Of a stretch of DNA of 64,000 bases, positions 45,892-58,623 are shown one piece after another (the first letter of the stretch is position 1; every line of letters starts with the position of its first letter). Location: positions 608,116 through 672,115 of the forward strand of contig JAXHLS010000006.1 in NCBI GenBank assembly GCA_034522055.1, given 5' to 3'. Both the position numbers and the translations under genes were made by a program. The DNA is from Gammaproteobacteria bacterium. Its GTDB lineage: Bacteria; Pseudomonadota; Gammaproteobacteria; JAABTG01. The notes beneath the pieces are model-generated. The model saw nothing but the letters and a program-made list of their open reading frames with translations, searched no databases and was not told the DNA's origin.

Positions 45892-48684
45892 TCAGGCGCT
45901 GGCGGCCTGCTGCTCCGGCCGGGACGCGGCCGGCGCGGCGGGACGTACGCGGATGGCGCAGTATTTGAACTCGGGGATCTTGCCGTAGGGGTCGAGGGCC
46001 TCGTTGGTCAGGAGATTGGCGGCAGCCTCGTGGTAGCAGAACGGCATGAACACCGAGCGCCGGGCCATGCCGCGGTCGGCGCGCGCGGTGGCCGTGATCT
46101 CGCCGCGCCGTGAGGTGATGGTCACCCGCTCGCCGGGGCGGATCCCCAGTTCCTGCATGTCCTGGGGGTGGAGGCTGGCCACCGCCTCGGGCTCTATGGC
46201 GTCCAGCACCGTGGCATGGCGGGTCATGCTGCCGGTGTGCCAGTGCTCCAACTGGCGGCCGGTGGTGAACACGAAGGGATAGTCGGTGTCCGGCACCTCG
46301 TCGGCATGGATGTGCTGGGCGGGGACGAAGCGGGCGCGGCCGCTGGCGGTGGGGAAGCCCTGCTGGAAGATGATGGGTTCGCCGGGGTCGCCTTCGTGGG
46401 TCAGGGGATAGGTGAGGGTGTCTTCCGCACTGAGGCGCTCCCAGGTCATGCCCGCGAGGCTGGGGGTCGCGTGGCGCATCTCCTCGAACACGTCGCTCAC
46501 GGACTCATAGGACCACTGCAGCCCCAGACCCTTGGCCATCTGCTGGATGATCCACAGGTCCTGGCGGGCGTCGCCGGGGGGATCGATGGCCTGGCGGCCG
46601 AGCTGGACGCGGCGGTCGGTGTTGGTGAAGGTGCCGGTCTTCTCGGGGAAGGCGGAGGCGGGCAGGATGACATCGGCGAAGCCCGCGGTCTCGGTGAAGA
46701 AGATGTCCTGCACCACCAGGTGATCGAGGCGCGCCAGGGCCTCCCGGGCGTGGTTCAGGTTGGGGTCCGACATGGCGGGGTTCTCCCCCATGATGTACAT
46801 GCCGTGGAGCCGGTCCTCGTGGATGGCGTTCATGATCTCCACCACCGTGAGCCCCGGCTTGGGGTCCAGGGGTGTGTCCCACAGCTGCTCGAACTTCTTC
46901 TGGATCACCGGGTCGTCCACCCGCTGGTAGTCGGGGTAGACCATAGGGATGAGGCCCACGTCCGAGGCCCCCTGGACGTTGTTCTGGCCGCGCAGGGGAT
47001 GCAGGCCGGTGCCGGGGCGGCCGATCTGGCCCGTGAGCAGAGCCAGGGCGATGAGACAGCGGGCGTTGTCGGTGCCGTGGATGTGCTGGGAGATCCCCAT
47101 GCCCCAGAAGATCATGGCCCCCTTGGCGGTGGCATAGAGACGGGCCACCTCGCGGATGGTCTGGGCCGGGATGCCGGTGATGGCCGCCACCTGCTCCGGC
47201 GGGTAGTCCATGACGTTCTGCTTCAGGGCCTCGTAACCCTCGGTATGGTCGCGGATGTAGGCGTCGTTCTGCAGGCCCTCCTCGATGATGGTGTACATCA
47301 TGGCGTTCAACAGGGGTACGTCGGTGTCGGCGTTGAACTGCAGGGAATAGCTGGCATGGCGGGCCAACTCGGAGCGGTAGGGGTCCATGAGGACGAGCTT
47401 CTTGCCGCTCTTGGCCGCGTTCTTCATGAAGGTGGCGGCCACCGGGTGATTCACCGTGGGCCGGGCGCCGATGATGATGATGACCTCGGCCTCGGCCACG
47501 TCGGCCACCTGGTTGGAGACGGAGCCCGAGCCGATGGTCTCCAGCATGGCGGCCACGGAGGAGGCGTGGCACAGACGGGTGCAGTGGTCGACGTTGTTGG
47601 TATGGAAGCCGGTGCGCACCAGCTTCTGGAACAGGTAGGCCTCCTCGTTGCTGCCTTTGGCGGAGCCGAAGCCGGCCAGGGCCTGGCCGCCCTTGTCGTC
47701 ACGGATGCGCGTGAGGCCACCCGTGGCCACCGCCAGGGCCTCTTCCCAACTCGCCTCGCGGAAATACTCGTGCAGCCGGTCATGCCCCAGTATCTCGGGG
47801 GTCTTGGGCATGCCTTCGCGGCGGATGAGGGGGGTGGTCAGGCGGTTGGCGTGATGGACATAGTCGAAGCCGTAGCGGCCCTTGACGCACAGGCGGCTGT
47901 GGTTGGAGGGGCCGTCGCGGCCGTTCGTATAGAGAATTGTGTCGTCCTTCACATGATAGGTGAGCAGGCAGCCCACGCCACAGTAGGGGCACACGGACTT
48001 CACCTGCCTGTCCGACGCCACTTGGCCCACCTCATGGGCGGGCATCAGGGCACCCGTGGGGCAGGCCTGGACGCACTCGCCGCAGGTGACGCAGGTGCTG
48101 TCTCCCATGGGGTCATCGAGGTCGAAGACGATCTTGGAATGCTCGCCGCGGAAGGCATAGCCGATGACATCGTTGACCTGTTCCTCACGGCAGGCGCGCA
48201 CGCAACGGGTACACTGGATACAGGTATCCAGGTTCACGGCGATGGCGGCGTTGCTGAGGTCGGGGGTGGGCTGGGGGCGCTGCCCGAAGCGGGGCCGGCC
48301 CACGCCGAGCTTGCCGGCCCAGTGGTCGAGCTCGGAGTTCGGTGTATGGGGAGAGGTCGTCTGTTCGGGCATGTCCGCCAGCAGCAGTTCGAGCACCATG
48401 CGCTGGGACAGCCGGGCGCGATCGCTGTCGCTGCGCACGGTCATGCCGTCCCTGGGCGCCCGGCAGCAGGAAGGTGCCAGGACCCGCTCGCCGTCGATCT
48501 CCACCATGCAGGAGCGGCAGTTGCCGACCTCGCGATAGCCCTCCTTGAAGCACAGGCTGGGGATCTCGACGCCGATGCGCCGGGCGGCCTGGAGGATGGT
48601 CTCGCCCTCCAGGGCCTCCACGGGCTGGCCGTTGAGGTCGAATCGGATGGTGCTCGCGGCGACGGTTTGGGGGTTGGCAGCCAT
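45892..48684 (-). CDS. fdhA: NAD-linked formate dehydrogenase, molybdenum/tungsten catalytic alpha subunit
   Basis: 930 aa from ATG 48684. Domains in order: 2Fe-2S ferredoxin domain (CFKEGYREVGNCRSCMVEID), His/Cys and 4Fe-4S clusters (CIQCTRCVRAC; CVTCGECVQACPTGAL), the catalytic MopB domain opening KSVCPYCGVGCLLTYH, the active-site region HCTRLCHASSVAAMLETIGS (Cys ligand, not Sec), and a C-terminal MopB cap (TTGRQLEHWHTGSMTRHATV). Oxidises formate to CO2. Size and two-subunit organisation match FDH1 of methylotrophs. The ATG overlaps the beta-subunit stop (TAATG). Confidence 0.93.
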   Translation of the reverse strand: MAANPQTVAASTIRFDLNGQPVEALEGETILQAARRIGVEIPSLCFKEGYREVGNCRSCMVEIDGERVLAPSCCRAPRDGMTVRSDSDRARLSQRMVLELLLADMPEQTTSPHTPNSELDHWAGKLGVGRPRFGQRPQPTPDLSNAAIAVNLDTCIQCTRCVRACREEQVNDVIGYAFRGEHSKIVFDLDDPMGDSTCVTCGECVQACPTGALMPAHEVGQVASDRQVKSVCPYCGVGCLLTYHVKDDTILYTNGRDGPSNHSRLCVKGRYGFDYVHHANRLTTPLIRREGMPKTPEILGHDRLHEYFREASWEEALAVATGGLTRIRDDKGGQALAGFGSAKGSNEEAYLFQKLVRTGFHTNNVDHCTRLCHASSVAAMLETIGSGSVSNQVADVAEAEVIIIIGARPTVNHPVAATFMKNAAKSGKKLVLMDPYRSELARHASYSLQFNADTDVPLLNAMMYTIIEEGLQNDAYIRDHTEGYEALKQNVMDYPPEQVAAITGIPAQTIREVARLYATAKGAMIFWGMGISQHIHGTDNARCLIALALLTGQIGRPGTGLHPLRGQNNVQGASDVGLIPMVYPDYQRVDDPVIQKKFEQLWDTPLDPKPGLTVVEIMNAIHEDRLHGMYIMGENPAMSDPNLNHAREALARLDHLVVQDIFFTETAGFADVILPASAFPEKTGTFTNTDRRVQLGRQAIDPPGDARQDLWIIQQMAKGLGLQWSYESVSDVFEEMRHATPSLAGMTWERLSAEDTLTYPLTHEGDPGEPIIFQQGFPTASGRARFVPAQHIHADEVPDTDYPFVFTTGRQLEHWHTGSMTRHATVLDAIEPEAVASLHPQDMQELGIRPGERVTITSRRGEITATARADRGMARRSVFMPFCYHEAAANLLTNEALDPYGKIPEFKYCAIRVRPAAPAASRPEQQAASA

Positions 48685-50390
48685 TAGCGGTCGAACTCCT
48701 GGGGAAAATATTTGAGGGCACAGCGCAGCGGGTTCGGGGCCGCCTGACCCAGGCCGCAGATGGAGGCGTCTACCATGGCGGTGGACAGCTCCTCGAGCAA
48801 CGCCTCGTCCCAGGTCTCCTGCTCCATCAGGGCCACGGCCTTGACCGTCCCCACGCGGCACGGTGTGCACTGTCCGCAGGATTCGTGGGCGAAGAAGCGC
48901 ATGGCATTGAGGGCGGCCTGGCGGGCGCTGTCGTGGTCGGACAGCACGATGATGGCGGCCGAACCGATGAAGCAGCTGGAATCCACCTCCTGGAGGGTGT
49001 CGAAGTCCAGGGGCACGTCGGCCTTGGATGCGGGGAGGATGCCGCCGGAGGCGCCGCCGGGGAAATAACCGTACAGGGTGTGGCCGTCCAGCATGCCGCC
49101 ACAGTACTCATCGATGAGTTCCCGCAGGGTGATACCGGCGGGGGCCAGGTGGACGCCCGGACGTTTCACCCGGCCGCTGACGGAGAAGGAGCGCAGGCCG
49201 TGGCGGCCGTGGCGACCCTGGCCGGCGAACCACTCCGGGCCCTTTTCCAGGACATCCCGCACCCAGTACATGGTCTCCAGGTTTTGTTCCAGGGTGGGTC
49301 GCCCGAAGACGCCCACCTGGGCCACCAGGGGCGGGCGCAGGCGGGGCATGCCGCGTTTGCCTTCGATGGACTCCACCATGGCCGATTCTTCGCCACAGAT
49401 ATAGGCGCCGGCGCCCCGCCGGATATGGACCCGGGGCAGGGGACAGGGCGGATTAGCTTCCAGGTCTGCCACCGCCTGGTGGAGGATACCCTCGGCGGTG
49501 GCGTATTCGTCCCGCAGGTAGAGATAGACATCGGGGGCGTTGACGGCCCAGGCGCCGATGAGGCTGCCCTCCAGGAAACGGTGGGGGTCACGCTCCAGAT
49601 AATGGCCATCCTTGAAGGTCCCGGGCTCGCCCTCGTCGATGTTGATGGTGACATAGCGGGGCTCGGGCTCGTCGCGCAATGCACGCCACTTGCGCCCTGC
49701 CGGAAAGCCGGCGCCCCCCAGGCCCCGCAGCTTGGCGTTCTCCAGGGTGGTGATGATGTCCTCCACGTCGCGCCGGCCCGCCACACACTCGGCCAGCAAC
49801 TCATAGCCCCCCTCCTGGCGGTAGGCGGCGTAATGGGTGACTCCCGCGGGCGCCGGAGGCTTCACCGACCCGGCATCGACGGCGGCGGCCACCGTCTCCG
49901 GCGTGGCGTGGCCGATGGGGTTGCGCCCCAGCACGACCACGGGGGCCTCGTGGCAGCGGCCCACGCAGGGCACGGGCTGGATGCGCACGCCGGGTCCCAG
50001 CTTCGCTTTCAGGGTGGCCATGAGTTCGTCGCAACCGTACATCTCACAGGTCACGGAGTCGCACACGCGCACGGTCAGCGGCGGCGGCGGGGTGTCCCCC
50101 GGTTTGATGACATCGAAATGATGATAGAAGGTGGCGACCTCGTAGACCTCGGTCATGGCGAGGCCGAGTTCGTGGGCCAGGGCCACCATGTGGGCGGCGG
50201 AGATATGCCTGTAGCCGTCCTGGATGAGGTGCAGGTACTCGATGAGCAGGTCGCGGCGGCGGGGGCCGTCCCCCAGCAAGACCCTTACTTCGGCCAGGGC
50301 CTGTTCTTGCGGCTGCCGGCCTTTCAGATGTCCGCGTTTCTTGCCACTTCCTTTGCGAGGAAGAGTCTTCGATTGAGCGACGTTCGTCAT
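48684..50390 (-). CDS. fdhB: formate dehydrogenase beta subunit (NuoE-NuoF fusion, FMN/NADH site)
   Basis: 568 aa from ATG 50390. N-part: thioredoxin-like 2Fe-2S domain with CDSVTCEMYGCDE and VPCVGRCHEAP. C-part: NuoF with GLGGAGFPAGRKW, INIDEGEPGTFKDGHYLERD (FMN), RGAGAYICGEESAMVESIEG and the 4Fe-4S ESCGQCTPCRVG. It passes electrons from the alpha subunit to NAD+. Overlaps the alpha subunit by the TAATG junction. Confidence 0.93.
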   Translation of the reverse strand: MTNVAQSKTLPRKGSGKKRGHLKGRQPQEQALAEVRVLLGDGPRRRDLLIEYLHLIQDGYRHISAAHMVALAHELGLAMTEVYEVATFYHHFDVIKPGDTPPPPLTVRVCDSVTCEMYGCDELMATLKAKLGPGVRIQPVPCVGRCHEAPVVVLGRNPIGHATPETVAAAVDAGSVKPPAPAGVTHYAAYRQEGGYELLAECVAGRRDVEDIITTLENAKLRGLGGAGFPAGRKWRALRDEPEPRYVTINIDEGEPGTFKDGHYLERDPHRFLEGSLIGAWAVNAPDVYLYLRDEYATAEGILHQAVADLEANPPCPLPRVHIRRGAGAYICGEESAMVESIEGKRGMPRLRPPLVAQVGVFGRPTLEQNLETMYWVRDVLEKGPEWFAGQGRHGRHGLRSFSVSGRVKRPGVHLAPAGITLRELIDEYCGGMLDGHTLYGYFPGGASGGILPASKADVPLDFDTLQEVDSSCFIGSAAIIVLSDHDSARQAALNAMRFFAHESCGQCTPCRVGTVKAVALMEQETWDEALLEELSTAMVDASICGLGQAAPNPLRCALKYFPQEFDR

Positions 50391-50813
50391 GTGCGGTGCT
50401 GCGACCTCCACCATGGTACGGACGCAGGGGTACGTCCGATGCTTCGTACTGCCCAGCAAAGGGTATGCCAGAGGAGCCGATAGCGGGGCGTGTGTGCGCT
50501 CTCCCTTGGCGCCAACCGACCCCACGGTATCGGCAAAACAACGACAGCGCCCCGGGTTAGGGTCGGCCATGGCCAAGGCCAAGGCGGCGCAAGGGCGGCA
50601 TGGCTTCCCGTCGCGCGTGGACCCGGTGTGACGCCCGTGGAGCGACCCCGTGGCTATTGTGCCACCACCGTTACATGCTTCTGCGCCATTGGCTCGTGGC
50701 GTGGCCGCCTGGTCGGAATCCGCAGCCCTTATGGGCCGTGCCCCGAGCCTCGGGGGTACTCGGCGCCGGGAAGCGAGCGCCTGTCCGGAACCCGTCTTGA
50801 CGCGCGTGTTCCC
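50391..50813. other. intergenic, nothing recognised
   Basis: No frame with a recognisable product, no RNA gene and no clear promoter consensus in these ~420 bp upstream of fdhB. Confidence 0.5.
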
Positions 50814-51368
50814 TCAGGAACAGGCGTGGCCATCCTCGGTGGCGTCTTCACGCGCACGTTCCAGGGAGGCCTCGTAGGTGTCCCTGGAGAGGTCCAGGCG
50901 TGCCAGATAGCGGCCTACGGTGGTCTCGGGTTCGAGGCGGTCGGCATGGAAGCGCGCCGCAAGGGCCTCGTTGTCGTTGAGATAGGCCGCCACCGCGGCG
51001 AAGCTCAGGCCCAGGCGAAAGTCGAAATTGCGGAATGCGTTGCTGTCCGGGTCCGGCGCCGGCATGGCGGCCGCCATTTCCTCGAAGGTCTGCGCGAAGC
51101 TCAGAAGGTGCTGGCGGGTGGCCGCCTCCAGGTCGTACTCCGCCACGATCTGGCGCAACATGGCGGCCACTTCGAGTCGGGTGTGGTTGTACGCATCGAG
51201 GTGTTGCTCCAGGGATTGCCTGCGGGTGAGCCATGAACCCTTGTCACACTCGCCGGCCAGCCGGTGGCTGGGGTAATCGGCGGGGAGTCTGGGGGCCACA
51301 TCGGCCCATACGAGGCCGGTGGTCGCTCCGGCCAGCAGAGCGGCCAGCAGGGTATGTGCATATCTCAT
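50814..51368 (-). CDS. hypothetical exported helical protein
   Basis: 184 aa, not recognised. Signal peptide MRYAHTLLAALLAGATTGLV to WA, then mostly alpha-helical sequence (SLEQHLDAYNHTRLEVAAML; RQIVAEYDLEAATRQHLLSF; TYEASLERAREDATEDGHAC) with single Cys residues near the start (GECDKGSW) and end. It sits downstream of SCO and the ferredoxin on the same strand, so a role in the periplasmic methanethiol oxidase locus is possible but unproven. Confidence 0.6.
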   Translation of the reverse strand: MRYAHTLLAALLAGATTGLVWADVAPRLPADYPSHRLAGECDKGSWLTRRQSLEQHLDAYNHTRLEVAAMLRQIVAEYDLEAATRQHLLSFAQTFEEMAAAMPAPDPDSNAFRNFDFRLGLSFAAVAAYLNDNEALAARFHADRLEPETTVGRYLARLDLSRDTYEASLERAREDATEDGHACS

Positions 51369-51669: not shown

Positions 51670-52227
51670 CTAGGGTGATGTCGACCCGGCACGGTTGAGT
51701 GCGTGGTCGAGGGTGTTGACCAGGACCTCGGAAGGCAGGCCGTCGGGAATCATGCGCATCAGCCGTCCATCGGTCCCGATGACGTAGATGCTGCTGCCAT
51801 GGTCGACGGTGTAGTCCTCTGACGCGCCCGTGTCGTTGACGCTGAATTGCACCCGATACTGACGGGCCACCTGCAGGAGGGCCTCGGGTGAGCCCGTCAG
51901 GCCCTTGATGGCGGGGTGGAACCAGCGGACATACTCCCGCAGCCGCTCGGGGGTGTCACGGGCCGGGTCGACGGACACGAACACGGGTACCACCTGCTCC
52001 GCCCGCGGCCCCAGGGCCCTGAGGGCCTCGGCCATCCTGGCCAGCATCATGGGGCAGACGTCGGGACAGTGGGTGTAACCGAAGGCCATCACGACTACCT
52101 TGCCTCGGGCGTCCTCCAGCGCGAAGGTGGTACCGTCATGGGCTGTCAGGCGGAAGTCTCCGCCCAGGGCCCAACCTGTGGTGGCGGGCCCGATGACGAG
52201 CCAGAAAGCCAGAAGTATCGAGCGCAT
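51670..52227 (-). CDS. SCO1/SenC-family copper chaperone
   Basis: 185 aa from ATG 52227, with signal MRSILLAFWLVIGPATTGWA. Thioredoxin fold with the Cu site C-x3-C in GYTHCPDVCPMMLARM and the distal His in YTVDHGSSIYVIG. Delivers copper to periplasmic cuproenzymes. Divergent from mtoX; an SCO gene next to mtoX is known from Hyphomicrobium, where MtoX is copper-dependent. Confidence 0.9.
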   Translation of the reverse strand: MRSILLAFWLVIGPATTGWALGGDFRLTAHDGTTFALEDARGKVVVMAFGYTHCPDVCPMMLARMAEALRALGPRAEQVVPVFVSVDPARDTPERLREYVRWFHPAIKGLTGSPEALLQVARQYRVQFSVNDTGASEDYTVDHGSSIYVIGTDGRLMRMIPDGLPSEVLVNTLDHALNRAGSTSP

Positions 52228-52445
52228 GGACAATCTTGTTAGCACTATTCGTTCCAGGCTGCCCTGATCCTCCATGACGGGCCCAACGGCGTGCAGTTCG
52301 GCGCCTGGATGCAGGGGGATGTTCCTTCAATACGTGCCGCACGTTGCACATCTTGAGAGGACTGTGTCACTGCCGCGGCACACTCGAATCACCAAGGCGA
52401 CTGACGAGCGTAGTGAAATCGCGGGGTAGCCGTTGCGCCAATGAT
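52228..52445. other. divergent regulatory gap between SCO and mtoX
   Basis: No gene. An upstream activator site would be expected 80-200 bp before the sigma-54 promoter at 52446, but I see no clear palindrome that I would defend. Confidence 0.35.
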
Positions 52446-52596: not shown

Positions 52597-54006
52597 ATGA
52601 AAACACCTATCACCCCACGGCATGGCCTGCGTCGGTCTCTTACCGCGCTCGCCCTGGCGACCTCTTCGGCCCTGGCTATCGGGATGCTCCCGGTTACGGC
52701 CAGCGCCGACGAGACGTGCGTCTCACCTTATTCGCCGAAGATCACGGGCCAGGAGCAGTTTGTGCACGTCTGGACCCTGGGCGTGAAGGGCGTAGGCGAT
52801 GAGCAGGACAAGCTCGTGACCATCGATACGGATCCCAAGTCGGACACCTTCGGCGAGGTCATCCATACCGTCTCGGTGGGCGGGCGCAACGAGGCCCATC
52901 ACTCGGGCTACAGCGATGATCGGCGCTACCTGTGGGCCGGCACCCTGGATACCAACAAGATCTTCATCTTCGACGTCCATACGGATCCGAGCAAACCGAA
53001 ACTGCACAAGGTCATAGACGACTTCGTCAAGGCCAGCGGTGGCGTGGTGGGCCCCCACAGCTTCTTCGCCCTGCCCGGGCGCATGATGATCAGCGCCCTG
53101 TCCAACAACAAGGACCACGGCGGCCGCACGGCGATGGTGGAATACACCAACGAAGGCGAGTTCGTGGAAACCTACTGGATGCCCACGGACGACAACCTGC
53201 GGGGTGCCGAGAAGACCGGCAAGTACGCCGATGGCTACGGCTACGACGTACGCTTCCTGCCGGCCAAGAACATCATGGTGACCAGTTCCTTCACCGGCTG
53301 GTCCAACTACATGATGGACTTCGGCAAGATGCTGAACGATCCCGAGGCCATGAAGCGCTTCGGCAACACCGCCATGGTATGGGACCTTCACAAGCGCAAG
53401 CCCCTGAAGGTCTTCGACATCCCCGGTGCCCCCCTGGAGATCCGCTGTGCCTGGGGCAGCAACTACTGCTTCACCACCACGGCCCTGACCTCCAAGATCT
53501 GGCTGATCTATGAGGACAAGGAAAAGGGCTGGACCACCAAGGAGATCGGGACCATCGGCGACCCCTCCAAGGTGCCGCTGCCCGTGGCCTTCTCCATCAC
53601 GGCAGACGACAGCCAACTGTGGGTCAATACCTTCATGGATGGCACGACCCGGCGGTTCGATGTCTCGGATCCATTCAATGCCAAGCTGATGAGCGAGCAC
53701 AAGATCGGTTCCCAGGTGAACATGGTCTCCCAGAGTTGGGACGGTGAGCGCCTGTACTTCACGTCTTCCCTGCTGGGTAACTGGGACAAGAAGGGCGAAG
53801 CCGACGAGCAATACCTCAAGATGTACAACTGGGACGGGGAAAACCTGACCAAGGTGTTCGAGGTGGACTTCTACAAGGAAAAGCTGGGGCGTGCCCATCT
53901 CATGACCTTCAACTCCAATGAGCTGTTCGAGACCAATATCGCCGAAAAGCAGGAGCTGAAAGATAAGCTGGGTGATGCCGTGGCTGCGGTGGATCCGGCC
54001 GACTGA
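52597..54006 (+). CDS. mtoX: methanethiol oxidase (SBP56 family)
   Basis: 469 aa from ATG 52597 with GGAGG 6 bp upstream. Signal peptide (LRRSLTALALATSSALAIGM ... TASA) makes it periplasmic. The SBP56 propeller includes GRNEAHHSGYSDDRRYLWAG, GGVVGPHSFFALPGRMMISA, DIPGAPLEIRCAWGSNYCFT and LYFTSSLLGNW. MtoX oxidises methanethiol to formaldehyde, H2S and H2O2. Flanking SCO and MauG genes, as in Hyphomicrobium, support MtoX rather than a generic selenium-binding protein. Confidence 0.88.
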   Translation: MKTPITPRHGLRRSLTALALATSSALAIGMLPVTASADETCVSPYSPKITGQEQFVHVWTLGVKGVGDEQDKLVTIDTDPKSDTFGEVIHTVSVGGRNEAHHSGYSDDRRYLWAGTLDTNKIFIFDVHTDPSKPKLHKVIDDFVKASGGVVGPHSFFALPGRMMISALSNNKDHGGRTAMVEYTNEGEFVETYWMPTDDNLRGAEKTGKYADGYGYDVRFLPAKNIMVTSSFTGWSNYMMDFGKMLNDPEAMKRFGNTAMVWDLHKRKPLKVFDIPGAPLEIRCAWGSNYCFTTTALTSKIWLIYEDKEKGWTTKEIGTIGDPSKVPLPVAFSITADDSQLWVNTFMDGTTRRFDVSDPFNAKLMSEHKIGSQVNMVSQSWDGERLYFTSSLLGNWDKKGEADEQYLKMYNWDGENLTKVFEVDFYKEKLGRAHLMTFNSNELFETNIAEKQELKDKLGDAVAAVDPAD

Positions 54007-54144: not shown

Positions 54145-56019
54145 ATGTTTTTGAGCAAACCCAGTTATCCAACCGCGTTCGCCTTCCTCTTGAGTTGCGC
54201 CTTGGGTCCCATCTCATCCGCCCCGGCGGTCGAGACCAAGAGTGAGATAAAGGGCGCCATCGATCGTCCTCAGGTCCTGGCGCCGGGGTATACGGCCCTG
54301 CGTTTCGATCCACCGGATGCCGGCACCTACCGCCTGCCCCCCATCGCCAAGGCGCCCGATGGGACCGTCCTCAAGACCGACGGCACCGAGGGTCGTCTCC
54401 ATGATTTGTTCGATGGCAAATACGTGGTGCTGAGCTTCATTTACAGCACCTGCGACGACGTCAATGGCTGTCCCCTGGCGACCTATGTCCTGTATCGCCT
54501 GTACCAGACCATGCAGAAGAATCCCGAGTTGGCAGAGAACATGCGCCTGCTCAGCCTCAGTTTCGATCCGCAGAATGACACCCCGGAGGTGATGCGCCTG
54601 TATGCCGAGAACTTCAGCGGCAAGGGGGCGGACTGGCTGTTCCTCACCGCCGAATCCAACGATGTCCTCGACCCCATCCTCGCGGACTACGGCCAGGGCG
54701 TGAACAGGGTCTATAACGAAAAAGGCGAAAATACCGGGCAGATCTCCCACGTGCTGCGGGTGTTCCTCATCGATCCCGAGCGCCGGATTCGCAACATCTA
54801 CAGCGTTTCCTTCCTGCACCCCGATCTCGTGCTGGCGGACGTGCGCACCCTGATGCAGGAGGCCGCAGCCGGCGGCTGGCAGGCGGCGGCCGCGAAGGCG
54901 AAGCCGCCCCTGCGGACCCGGGAACTGGTGGCCCAGGCCAGCCACAGCCCCCTGGGGCTGCCGCCCATGGCGGTGCCCGAGGGGCAGGAGATCACCGCGG
55001 CCCGGGTGGACCTGGGGCGCAAACTGTTCTTCGACCGGCGCCTGTCGGGCAACGAGACCCTGTCTTGCGCCATGTGTCACATCCCGGACCAGGGTTTCAC
55101 CAACAACGCCATGTCCAGGGCCGTGGGCATGGAGGGCCAATCCCTGCGGCGTAACGCCGCAAGCCTCTATAACCTGGCCTGGACGGATCCCCTGTTCGTG
55201 GATGGCCGTGAGCGCCATCTCCATACCCTCACCTGGAGTGAGTTGCTGGATCTCAAGCGCATGGGCAACCGTGCCGTGGGGGTCGTGCTGGACAAGCTGC
55301 GTGGCCTGCCAGACTACGAAGGCCTCTTCGAGGAGGCCTTCGATGGCCGGGGTGCAGACATGATGACCACGGGTACGGCCATGGCCAGCTATCTGCGTAC
55401 CCTCGTATCCGGCAATTCTACCTTCGATCGCTGGCGCTTCGGCGGCGAGGAAGGGGCCATGACCCCGGCCGCCGCCCGCGGCTTCGAATTGTTCACCGGC
55501 CGCGCCGGCTGTGCCTCGTGCCATGAGGTGAACGAGGACCATGCCCTGTTCACCGACAACGAACCGCACGACACGGGCATCGGCTGGCATCATTCCATGG
55601 GCAAGGCGCCCGACCAGCGGATCATGGACCTGGGTGGCGGCATCCGCATCGAGCTCGACATGGCCGCGGTGGCGGATACCGCCGAACGCGCCTACAACGA
55701 TCTGGGATTGTACGAGGCCACCCAGGATCCGGCGGACCGCTGGAAATTCCGCACCCCCGGCCTGCGCAACGTGACCAAGACGGCGCCCTATATGCATGAC
55801 GGTTCCCTGCCTACGTTGGAAACGGTGGTGGACTTCTACGACCAGGGTGGATTCGAGCATCCGGAGCAGGACGAGCGCATACGCCCCCTCGGCCTCTCCG
55901 ATGGCGACAAGGCGGATCTGGTGGCCTTCCTGCGGTCTCTGACGGGTGACAATCTGGACCTTTTCGAGGCGGATGCCGAGGCGGCCCCCGTCGGCGTGCC
56001 GGCGGGGGACGGATCATGA
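54145..56019 (+). CDS. SCO copper-chaperone domain fused to a MauG-type di-heme cytochrome c peroxidase
   Basis: 624 aa. Exported (SYPTAFAFLLSCALGPISSA). Residues ~85-250 form an SCO-like thioredoxin domain (HDLFDGKYVVLSFIYSTCDD; VNGCPLATYVL; C-x5-C), ending with the conserved GQISHVLRVFLIDPERRIR. Residues ~280-615 are a bacterial di-heme peroxidase/MauG with heme sites CAMCH and CASCH and the distal blocks FFDRRLSGNETLS and FRTPGLRNVTKTAPYMHDGS. MauG proteins mature protein-derived cofactors. It probably both delivers copper to and oxidatively matures MtoX (inference). The stop overlaps the next ATG. Confidence 0.88.
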   Translation: MFLSKPSYPTAFAFLLSCALGPISSAPAVETKSEIKGAIDRPQVLAPGYTALRFDPPDAGTYRLPPIAKAPDGTVLKTDGTEGRLHDLFDGKYVVLSFIYSTCDDVNGCPLATYVLYRLYQTMQKNPELAENMRLLSLSFDPQNDTPEVMRLYAENFSGKGADWLFLTAESNDVLDPILADYGQGVNRVYNEKGENTGQISHVLRVFLIDPERRIRNIYSVSFLHPDLVLADVRTLMQEAAAGGWQAAAAKAKPPLRTRELVAQASHSPLGLPPMAVPEGQEITAARVDLGRKLFFDRRLSGNETLSCAMCHIPDQGFTNNAMSRAVGMEGQSLRRNAASLYNLAWTDPLFVDGRERHLHTLTWSELLDLKRMGNRAVGVVLDKLRGLPDYEGLFEEAFDGRGADMMTTGTAMASYLRTLVSGNSTFDRWRFGGEEGAMTPAAARGFELFTGRAGCASCHEVNEDHALFTDNEPHDTGIGWHHSMGKAPDQRIMDLGGGIRIELDMAAVADTAERAYNDLGLYEATQDPADRWKFRTPGLRNVTKTAPYMHDGSLPTLETVVDFYDQGGFEHPEQDERIRPLGLSDGDKADLVAFLRSLTGDNLDLFEADAEAAPVGVPAGDGS

Positions 56020-57329
56020 AAATTCGGAATTTCTCGTGCCGGGATGCACACCGGATGGCTCGCGCCTGCGGGGGGAGCCTGACGCTCATTTTCGGCCTTG
56101 CAGTGGGGGCGGCCGAACCGGTGACGGATGGTCCCGGGGACTACAAGGGTAATTACGATAGCCCGGACTACGTCACCCGCTCCGTCTCCCTGGAGGCGCG
56201 GGTGGGCCGGAAGGCCGATCTGCTGGCCATCGCCCGCCATCCCCCCCTCGGCCTGCCTCCGCAGCCGGTACCGGAGGACAACCCCTTGACGCGGGAGAAG
56301 GTGGAGCTGGGACGCAAGCTGTTCTTCGACCGCCGCCTGTCCCTCAACGGCACCCAGTCCTGCGCCATGTGCCATATACCCGAGCAGGGCTTCACCAACA
56401 ACGAACTGGCCACGGCCGTGGGGCTTGAGGGCAGGGACGTGGGACGCAACGCGCCCACCCTCTACAACGTGGGCTACAAGACCCGCATGTTCCACGACGC
56501 CCGGGAATCCAGCCTGGAGCAGCAGGCGTGGCAGCCCATAGTCAATCCCCTGGAAATGGCCAGCCCGTCCATCGGCTGGACGTTGGAACGGATCCGCAAT
56601 CTGAAGGATTATGACGGCCTGTTCGAAGCCGCCTTCGATGGCAGCGGCCCCGATATGAACACGGTTGCCGATGCCCTGGCCAGTTATCAGCGCACCCTGC
56701 TGGCGGCCGATTCCCCCTTCGACCGCTGGTATTACGGTGACGAAGAGAACGCCCTCGATGCTTCGGCGCAGCGGGGTTTCGAGTTGTTCACCGGCCGCGG
56801 AAACTGCAGCAGTTGCCATCTCATCGGTGAGGACCATGCCCTGTTCACCGACGACGTCGTTCACAACACCGGGACCGGCTATAGGCGGGCCATGGAAGCG
56901 GCACCCGGGCCGCGGCGGGTGGCCCTGGCTCCGGGTGTCTTCGTGGATGTGGCCCCGGAAATCGTAGCGGGGGTATCCGGCCCCGGCGCGGGCAACGACC
57001 TGGGGCGTTACGAGGTGACCGGGGACCCCGCAGACCGCTGGCACTACAAGACCCCCACCCTGCGCAACGTGGCCCTCACTGCGCCCTACATGCATGACGG
57101 GTCGTTGCTCACCCTGGCGGACGTGGTGGACTTTTACGATCGGGGAGGCGTACCCAATCCGCTGCTAGATCCACGCATTCGTCCCCTCGGTCTCAGTGAG
57201 AGGGAAAGAGCCGATCTCCTGGCCTTCCTCGAGGCCCTGACGGGCGACTATCGCCCCCTGGTACTCGACGCCTTCGTGGCCCCGGTAGGGGACGTGGGCA
57301 GCCGCTATGAAGACACCACCTCACCCTGA
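56016..57329 (+). CDS. MauG-type di-heme cytochrome c peroxidase
   Basis: 437 aa. Signal peptide (LTLIFGLAVGAA). Heme motifs CAMCH near residue 120 and CSSCH near 268; FFDRRLSLNGTQS, FTNNELATAVGLEG and TPTLRNVALTAPYMHDGSLL match the peroxidase/MauG fold. It is a close paralogue of the C-terminal half of the preceding fusion, so the two arose by duplication. ATGA overlap with the upstream gene. Confidence 0.9.
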   Translation: MKIRNFSCRDAHRMARACGGSLTLIFGLAVGAAEPVTDGPGDYKGNYDSPDYVTRSVSLEARVGRKADLLAIARHPPLGLPPQPVPEDNPLTREKVELGRKLFFDRRLSLNGTQSCAMCHIPEQGFTNNELATAVGLEGRDVGRNAPTLYNVGYKTRMFHDARESSLEQQAWQPIVNPLEMASPSIGWTLERIRNLKDYDGLFEAAFDGSGPDMNTVADALASYQRTLLAADSPFDRWYYGDEENALDASAQRGFELFTGRGNCSSCHLIGEDHALFTDDVVHNTGTGYRRAMEAAPGPRRVALAPGVFVDVAPEIVAGVSGPGAGNDLGRYEVTGDPADRWHYKTPTLRNVALTAPYMHDGSLLTLADVVDFYDRGGVPNPLLDPRIRPLGLSERERADLLAFLEALTGDYRPLVLDAFVAPVGDVGSRYEDTTSP

Positions 57330-57342
57330 AACAGGAGTTCCC

Positions 57343-57876
57343 ATGATTCCATTGAAGACCGCATTACCCGGCGCGCTCCTGGCGTGCCTCCTCCTGGTAA
57401 CGGCCCAGGCCACGGCGGCCGAGCGCACCATGGACCCTGAATCCGGACGCCCAATGGCCGGCGACTTCGTCCTCGGGAGCGTGAGCGGAGATGACTATCG
57501 CCTCGAGGATCTACGGGGACAGTGGGTGCTGGTGAGCTTCTGGGCCACCTGGTGCTCGCCCTGCCTGAAGGAGATGCCCACCATGGAGCGGTTGTACCAG
57601 GATATGGCCGATGAGGGCCTGGAGATCCTGGCGGTACACGCCGGTCCCGGCGGTGCCAAGGTGGGAGAATTCCTGGAACAGGTCCCCGTCAGTTTTCCTA
57701 TCCTGCTGGACGAGGACCTGTCCCTCGGTGGCTGGGAGGTCATGGCCCTGCCCACCGCCGTCCTCGTGGACCCCACCGGCCGCCAGGTGTATCGGGCCGT
57801 GGGTCCGCGGGATTGGGACACTCCGGCCATGAAGGCCTTCCTGCGCGACCTGATGGCCGCCCCTGACGCCGGCTGA
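57343..57876 (+). CDS. TlpA-like periplasmic thioredoxin
   Basis: 177 aa from ATG 57343 with CAGGAG upstream. Signal (LPGALLACLLLVTAQATAA), then a TlpA/ResA fold: LEDLRGQWVLVSFWATWCSP then CLKEMPTME (WCSPC active site) and VMALPTAVLVDPTGRQV (cis-Pro). A reductant for copper sites or heme-binding Cys of the neighbouring proteins is a natural role. Confidence 0.9.
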   Translation: MIPLKTALPGALLACLLLVTAQATAAERTMDPESGRPMAGDFVLGSVSGDDYRLEDLRGQWVLVSFWATWCSPCLKEMPTMERLYQDMADEGLEILAVHAGPGGAKVGEFLEQVPVSFPILLDEDLSLGGWEVMALPTAVLVDPTGRQVYRAVGPRDWDTPAMKAFLRDLMAAPDAG

Positions 57877-57913: not shown

Positions 57914-57945
57914 GACGCCCAGTCCCCAGGACACCCATAATCTTG

Positions 57946-57987
57946 CCATTCACCATTCACCATTCACCATTCACCATTCACCATTCA
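57946..57987. repeat. heptanucleotide tandem repeat (CCATTCA)6
   Basis: Six uninterrupted copies of CCATTCA between the TlpA-like gene and the gcvH promoter. Non-coding. Pure short repeats like this can change length by slippage. Confidence 0.95.
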
Positions 57988-58073
57988 CTATGTGCATGGA
58001 GCCGTGACGCCGATATCCACGCGGGTGACTCGATTCATTTTTTCACCTGTGGAGCAAACCGAGTCTTTCGGGA

Positions 58074-58145
58074 ATCAGTAGTTTTACAAACCCACTCCGT
58101 AGTCCTGCGAATATTCGCACAGCTCACATCGATCTATTGTCTGGC
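58074..58145 (+). promoter_or_regulatory. promoter element shared with the osmC promoter
   Basis: Upstream of gcvH. Blocks in order: GTAGTTTTAC, CCGTAGT, GCGAATATTCG, TCACATC, CTATTGT. The same blocks with the same spacing occur on the reverse strand at 61471-61535 upstream of osmC. Likely a common activator site. Confidence 0.7.
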
Positions 58146-58236
58146 TCGGTGGCGTACGCCGAAGCCCTGCAGGAGGCCGCGGAAAACGCCCTCGGGCAGG
58201 CTCTACACAACCCACGTACCCAACAGGAGGGCAGGC

Positions 58237-58623
58237 ATGAGCCAGCCATCAGCATGTAGGTTTCATGAGAACCATCTGTGGTGTAGGCCACGGGGCGACG
58301 GGGCCTTCGTCGTCGGCATGAGCGATTACTCTCAGGAGAACCTCGGCGACATCATGTGCTTCGAACTTCCGGGGCCCGGGACCTCCATCACCACCGGCGA
58401 ATCCTTCGGTACGGTGGAATCGGTCAAGGTGGTCAATGATCTGATCGCGCCTTTGGGGGGCGAAGTGGTGGAGACCAATCCGGCCATTGAAGACGATCCG
58501 ACACTGGCCAACACCGACCCCTACGGTGACGGCTGGCTCCTGGTGGTTCGCGCCGACAGCGACCAGCCCGATGGATTGATGGATGAAGACGCCTACAGAG
58601 ACTACCTCCAGCGCGAGGCATGA
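58237..58623 (+). CDS. gcvH: GcvH-like lipoyl carrier protein
   Basis: 128 aa from ATG 58237, AGGAGGG upstream. Lipoyl domain with the modified Lys in GTVESVKVVNDLIAPLGGEV, preceded by GMSDYSQENLGDIMCFELPG. No other glycine-cleavage gene is nearby. In sulfur oxidisers, H-protein relatives (LbpA) serve the sHdr sulfur oxidation pathway, so this may not be a glycine-cleavage protein. Sequence alone does not decide. Confidence 0.8.
   Translation: MSQPSACRFHENHLWCRPRGDGAFVVGMSDYSQENLGDIMCFELPGPGTSITTGESFGTVESVKVVNDLIAPLGGEVVETNPAIEDDPTLANTDPYGDGWLLVVRADSDQPDGLMDEDAYRDYLQREA

Follow-up and report, generated by a model that had tools for sequence, protein, structure and literature searches.

The locus described here raises the question of why an SCO-type copper chaperone should be joined in one protein to a MauG-type di-heme domain beside mtoX, the gene for methanethiol oxidase, and which part of any maturation of MtoX each half would perform. 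MtoX has a key place in the organic sulfur cycle, and whether it carries an oxidised-tryptophan cofactor has been a question since 2017. According to Eyice et al. (PMC5739008), SCO1/senC and mauG genes, or one gene fusing both domains, often lie behind mtoX, and these authors suggested that MtoX is loaded with copper and acquires a TTQ cofactor. A study of Methylophaga thiooxydans described the fusion together with a TlpA-like gene, likely export and induction on DMS (PMC6548844). This organism shares the order and domains of mtoX, SCO-MauG fusion and TlpA-like gene with the DNA examined here and a maturation role has already been proposed (PMC5739008, PMC6548844), but the published accounts mention neither a second MauG nor a lost distal pocket. 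Hyphomicrobium sp. VS and Ruegeria pomeroyi carry the same three activities in one mtoX-SCO-mauG operon (consecutive genes for MtoX, SCO and a peroxidase in R. pomeroyi), with SCO and MauG as separate proteins, unlike those of the window, by which is meant the whole stretch of 64,000 nucleotides of gammaproteobacterial DNA analysed. The fusion and the maturation idea are thus published, whereas repeated pocket loss in a chaperone-fused MauG beside a second MauG is apparently undescribed. A search of the literature on MauG with methanethiol oxidase did not find this anatomy of two MauG proteins and a pocket-less fusion, though such two-MauG operons might be included, with no remark on them, in Table S7 of Eyice et al.

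The genes of the window run in the order mtoX, SCO-MauG fusion, second MauG and TlpA-like thioredoxin, Table 1, which places SCO and MauG beside mtoX as in the maturation operons of Eyice et al. The conserved copper-ligand His residues, paired Trp and Cys of the SBP56 family are all present in the MtoX of the window, their roles (putative copper His, paired Trp, reactive Cys) being taken from PMC5739008 and PMC10936201. Cys41, Trp235, Trp396, His101 and His434 are kept in 91 of 91 MtoX sequences, and His102 and His154 in 90. The start codon of the second MauG overlaps the stop codon of the fusion (ATGA). A relative of the TlpA-like gene also lies downstream at five other loci (L032, L033, L035, L040 and L149), and relatives of the separate, divergent SCO protein were found near several other mtoX loci.

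Table 1. Features of the mtoX locus, in coordinates of the window.
Feature	Position	Strand	Basis
Separate canonical SCO/SenC protein, CPDVCP (CX3C), divergent from mtoX	51670-52275	-	Pfam SCO1-SenC, 162 bits
mtoX, methanethiol oxidase, directly upstream of the fusion	52597-54006	+	Pfam SBP56
MtoX putative Cu ligands His101, His102, His154, His434; putative cofactor Trp235 and Trp396; Cys41	within 52597-54006	+	Conservation
SCO-MauG fusion, 624 aa, N-terminal hydrophobic signal sequence	54145-56019 (or from 54118)	+	ORF, Pfam, alignment, fold search
SCO1/SenC domain, residues 87-214	54403-54786	+	Pfam
CX5C putative copper Cys pair CDDVNGC, C103/C109	54451-54471	+	CX5CP in 118/118 MtoX-type SCO sequences
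Putative copper ligand His202	54748-54750	+	Invariant
Fused MauG domain, degenerate distal pocket	54907-55959	+	Pfam and alignments
First heme site CAMCH, equivalent of the MauG high-spin heme site	55066-55080	+	Alignment
Degenerate distal-pocket loop LHTLTWSELLDLKRM	55219-55263	+	Alignment to Paracoccus MauG and 121 relatives
Second heme site CASCH	55510-55524	+	Alignment
Axial Tyr523, equivalent of MauG Tyr294	55711-55713	+	Alignment to Paracoccus MauG
Second MauG, own signal sequence	56016-57329	+	Pfam CCP_MauG, 176 bits
Intact distal-pocket loop LEQQAWQPIVNPLEM of the second MauG	56514-56558	+	Alignment
TlpA-like thioredoxin, WCSPC	57343-57876	+	Pfam AhpC-TSA/Redoxin

The sequence-only reading had described a single protein joining an SCO domain, with its Cys pair, to a di-heme MauG with two CxxCH sites, and this description was borne out. 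A single frame is open throughout from ATG to stop, and both Pfam profiles match: SCO1-SenC with 56.4 bits against a cut-off of 22.8, and CCP_MauG from residues 286-433 onward with 141 bits against 25.6, which together with the two CxxCH sites assigns the fused copy to the CCP_MauG superfamily. A fold search with the fusion returned Sco structures (2k6v, 1wp0 and 1xzo) as well as MauG-like ones. In the structure model the SCO domain is well predicted and the surroundings of the hemes modestly so (mean pLDDT 68.6), and no pocket geometry is therefore argued from it. C103/C109, His202, the CxxCH sites at 308-312 and 456-460 and Tyr523 are all invariant in 26 aligned fusions, thus the fusion is neither chance nor the product of a missed stop. 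Its recurrence in dozens of genomes likewise excludes a sequencing error between the domains.

C103, C109 and H202, which from their sequence would be the copper ligands, are also invariant across 17 aligned SCO domains. The spacing of the cysteines is CX5C instead of the usual CX3C of SCO proteins, a spacing that is typical but not strictly defining. CX5CP, not CX3CP, was present in all 118 mtoX-type SCO sequences examined, a set fetched in part by a pattern containing the motif. A motif-independent search with the SCO domain of 369 genomes of the class Gammaproteobacteria gave a clear gap between mtoX-type SCO (E < about 1e-41, plus one split match at 2e-35) and ordinary SCO. Judged by sequence, the CX5CP SCO proteins of the MtoX type are a distinct subfamily, and the loop (CxDxNGCP) could serve as a sequence marker for it. 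Long SCO ORFs in L037, L038 and L045 were considered as other SCO-MauG fusions and rejected; they contain no heme sites and the SCO there is CX3C and unfused.

The order to which the window organism belongs comprises only five genomes. Relatives of the SCO domain of the window turned up at 493 loci when GTDB species genomes were scanned; the genomes named here come from the best 80 of the 493 by similarity to it, so that frequencies among them are not unbiased. In most of these loci SCO is fused to MauG and in some the two are separate but adjacent. Where a fused locus had enough upstream sequence, mtoX lay within 1 kb upstream in 66 of 80 cases and was absent there in 14. All but one of those 14 genomes (a 1.9 Mb MAG) nevertheless carry mtoX, in three of them 1.4-3.6 kb upstream of the fusion. 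The association with mtoX on which the sequence-only reading depended is therefore upheld, and a fusion widespread without mtoX, which would have told against it, was not what was found. In many Methylococcaceae (L103, L109, L120, L124 and L127) the fusion stands apart from mtoX in unrelated neighbourhoods, with mtoX elsewhere in the genome.

The two MauG copies of the window differ in the distal pocket. With a Paracoccus MauG (L150) as the reference for numbering, Gln103, Pro107 and Glu113 are replaced in the fused copy by Leu362, Glu366 and Arg372, whereas the second MauG keeps the equivalents of all three and of Tyr294. The distal Gln/Pro/Glu is shared by MauG, bCCP and BthA, and a Glu variant of BthA is impaired (PMC6405878). 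The fused copy lacks this trio of the catalytic CCP_MauG members and is probably unable to activate peroxide as MauG does. Both copies share the di-heme fold, the two CxxCH sites and the axial Tyr294 with the MauG of methylamine dehydrogenase, which acts in TTQ biosynthesis, but neither has its inter-heme Trp93 or electron-transfer Trp199; the equivalents are Val and Ala in the fused copy and His and Gly in the second MauG. Across the MauG sequences compared here, Trp199 is replaced by Ala or Gly in nearly all and Trp93 mostly by His, so the mechanism of MauG is not directly transferable to them.

These observations divide the proposal that copper insertion and oxidative maturation of MtoX act together. 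The linkage to mtoX is strong, but the single-protein form of the proposal probably fails here since the fused MauG lacks the residues for peroxide use, and any oxidation would fall to the second MauG. The CX5C spacing, the missing pocket and the intact MauG downstream had all been overlooked in the sequence-only reading.

Among 122 MauG sequences the pocket Gln/Pro/Glu is intact in all 34 separate copies and in 75 of 77 one-copy fusions, and altered in 8 of 11 tandem fusions. L046 (Glu to Lys), one of the altered fusions first scored as one-copy, in fact carries a separate, intact MauG next to mtoX at another place in the genome. With L046 accordingly moved to the two-copy group, and a distant, unrelated peroxidase in L064 left out, a pocket-altered fused copy is found in 9 of 11 two-copy genomes against 1 of 57 assessable one-copy fusions. 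At positions 103/107/113 the fused copies of the window and of its three nearest relatives (L053, L054 and L055) have L/E/R, that of L034 has A/E/T, those of L087 and L058 have Q/P/M, that of L040 has L/Q/E and that of L046 has Q/P/K. The heme motifs and axial Tyr are intact in every pocket-altered copy. The two-copy exceptions, L056 and L033, keep an intact fused copy. The second MauG of L033 (L033:4296-5672) has its axial Tyr changed to Ser with the distal pocket intact, the reverse of the case in the window.

When the pocket loop was left out, the MauG tree united the degenerate fused copies of the window, L053, L054 (Thiohalocapsa), L055 (Thiorhodococcus drewsii) and L034 in one clade (support 100/99) and the separate partners of the window-clade fusions in another (99/96), and it placed Thiogranum (L087 and L058) and L040/L046 in different clades that are also well supported. 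In the SCO-domain tree four changes are required to explain pocket loss, and branches with good support force at least three of these. The trees thus indicate that pocket loss in the fused MauG arose at least three times. The events are too few for an independent-pairs test to reach significance. The dN/dS of the degenerate domain is about 0.16-0.23, similar to that of the intact copy, and it is therefore under purifying selection. The fused copies of the window clade also lack the linker PGDxKxGY...ADL, which the second copy retains.

The reading preferred here, to which a probability of roughly one half is given, is that the operon encodes a periplasmic maturation module for MtoX in which copper comes from the fusion and peroxide chemistry from the second MauG, with the degenerate domain serving in docking or relay. 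The CX5C SCO domain would carry copper to MtoX, and the TlpA-like thioredoxin is the likely reductant of its Cys pair, a role backed by the known TlpA-ScoI complex (4txo) among the fold matches of the fusion. The two MauG copies may have divided the work in this lineage: the separate MauG would perform any peroxide-driven oxidation, most likely of the conserved MtoX tryptophans, and the fused copy, which has kept its hemes and axial Tyr, would dock or relay electrons as a subunit attached to the copper chaperone. The mtoX linkage, the pattern of pocket loss, the selection on the degenerate domain and the conserved His, Trp and Cys of MtoX are consistent with such a module, while the two intact fused copies among 11 two-copy genomes and the absence of Trp93 and Trp199 are counterpoints. 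Recombinant SBP56 proteins from E. coli are active without MauG (PMC10362175, PMC10936201) and this, like the missing tryptophans, counts against an obligate oxidation step. Both the protein-derived cofactor of MtoX and the action of MauG upon it are putative. A more specific form of the module, offered tentatively and with less confidence, would cast the fused MauG as a pseudo-peroxidase that bears hemes, docks to MtoX and passes electrons on, so that the separate MauG oxidises MtoX through it and copper loading and Trp oxidation belong to one two-protein machine that arose several times. The two-copy lineages, with a pocket-less chaperone-fused MauG and an intact one, would be a natural separation-of-function test of whether active MtoX needs peroxide chemistry, heme relay or copper delivery alone.

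A serious rival is peroxide defence, because methanethiol oxidation is reported to make H2O2: MtoX would produce it in the periplasm, the MauG-like di-heme peroxidases would remove it, SCO alone would mature MtoX and the fusion would only couple expression. In M. thiooxydans methanethiol oxidation yields H2O2, and catalase and peroxiredoxin are induced on DMS (PMC6548844), although R. pomeroyi-type methanethiol oxidases are reported to make none (PMC10936201). The solved relatives of both MauG copies include many true peroxidases. One of these is BthA, a catalytic peroxidase of the same superfamily with Tyr-His ligation and no inter-heme Trp, which still turns H2O2 over to water despite its Tyr ligand (PMC6405878); it is a weaker sequence match (6nx0) and carries no chaperone domain. 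The activity of SBP56 proteins without MauG (PMC10362175, PMC10936201) also fits defence. It would however be odd for a peroxidase to be covalently joined to a copper chaperone in dozens of genomes, and a pocket-less peroxidase under purifying selection would have no use unless electrons were passed on. Defence is a possible explanation, less likely than the maturation module.

Since the closest solved relative is a copper-homeostasis protein, 6e1c (MbnH), a kynurenine-type modification is worth considering beside TTQ. MbnP, the partner of MbnH, binds copper through kynurenine, and the MauG pair might similarly convert a tryptophan of MtoX to a kynurenine-type copper ligand instead of a TTQ cross-link. 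Among PDB entries, 6e1c (title: MauG-like protein associated with microbial copper homeostasis) matches both MauG copies best by sequence and the fusion best by fold, but the identity of about 28% is not specific, 6e1c has no SCO domain and a different substrate protein, and Eyice et al. favour TTQ on the basis of a matching mass (PMC5739008). This modification is considered unlikely. That the fused MauG domain has no role and is decaying after duplication, as its lost distal pocket and inter-heme residue might suggest, is very improbable given its dN/dS, the intact heme motifs and axial Tyr of every altered copy and the repetition of the loss in at least three lineages.

Three further features of the window lie near this operon. 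Genes resembling an NAD-linked formate dehydrogenase are found at 45892-50582 on the reverse strand; MtoX releases formaldehyde, and formate oxidation encoded close by would be in keeping with that pathway. At 50817-51368, near the divergent SCO gene, lies the gene for a protein of 184 aa that has a signal-like N-terminus and matches no Pfam family. Beyond the TlpA-like gene, the ORF of a glycine cleavage H-protein (57943-58623) has a long N-terminal extension, probably the result of a wrong start.
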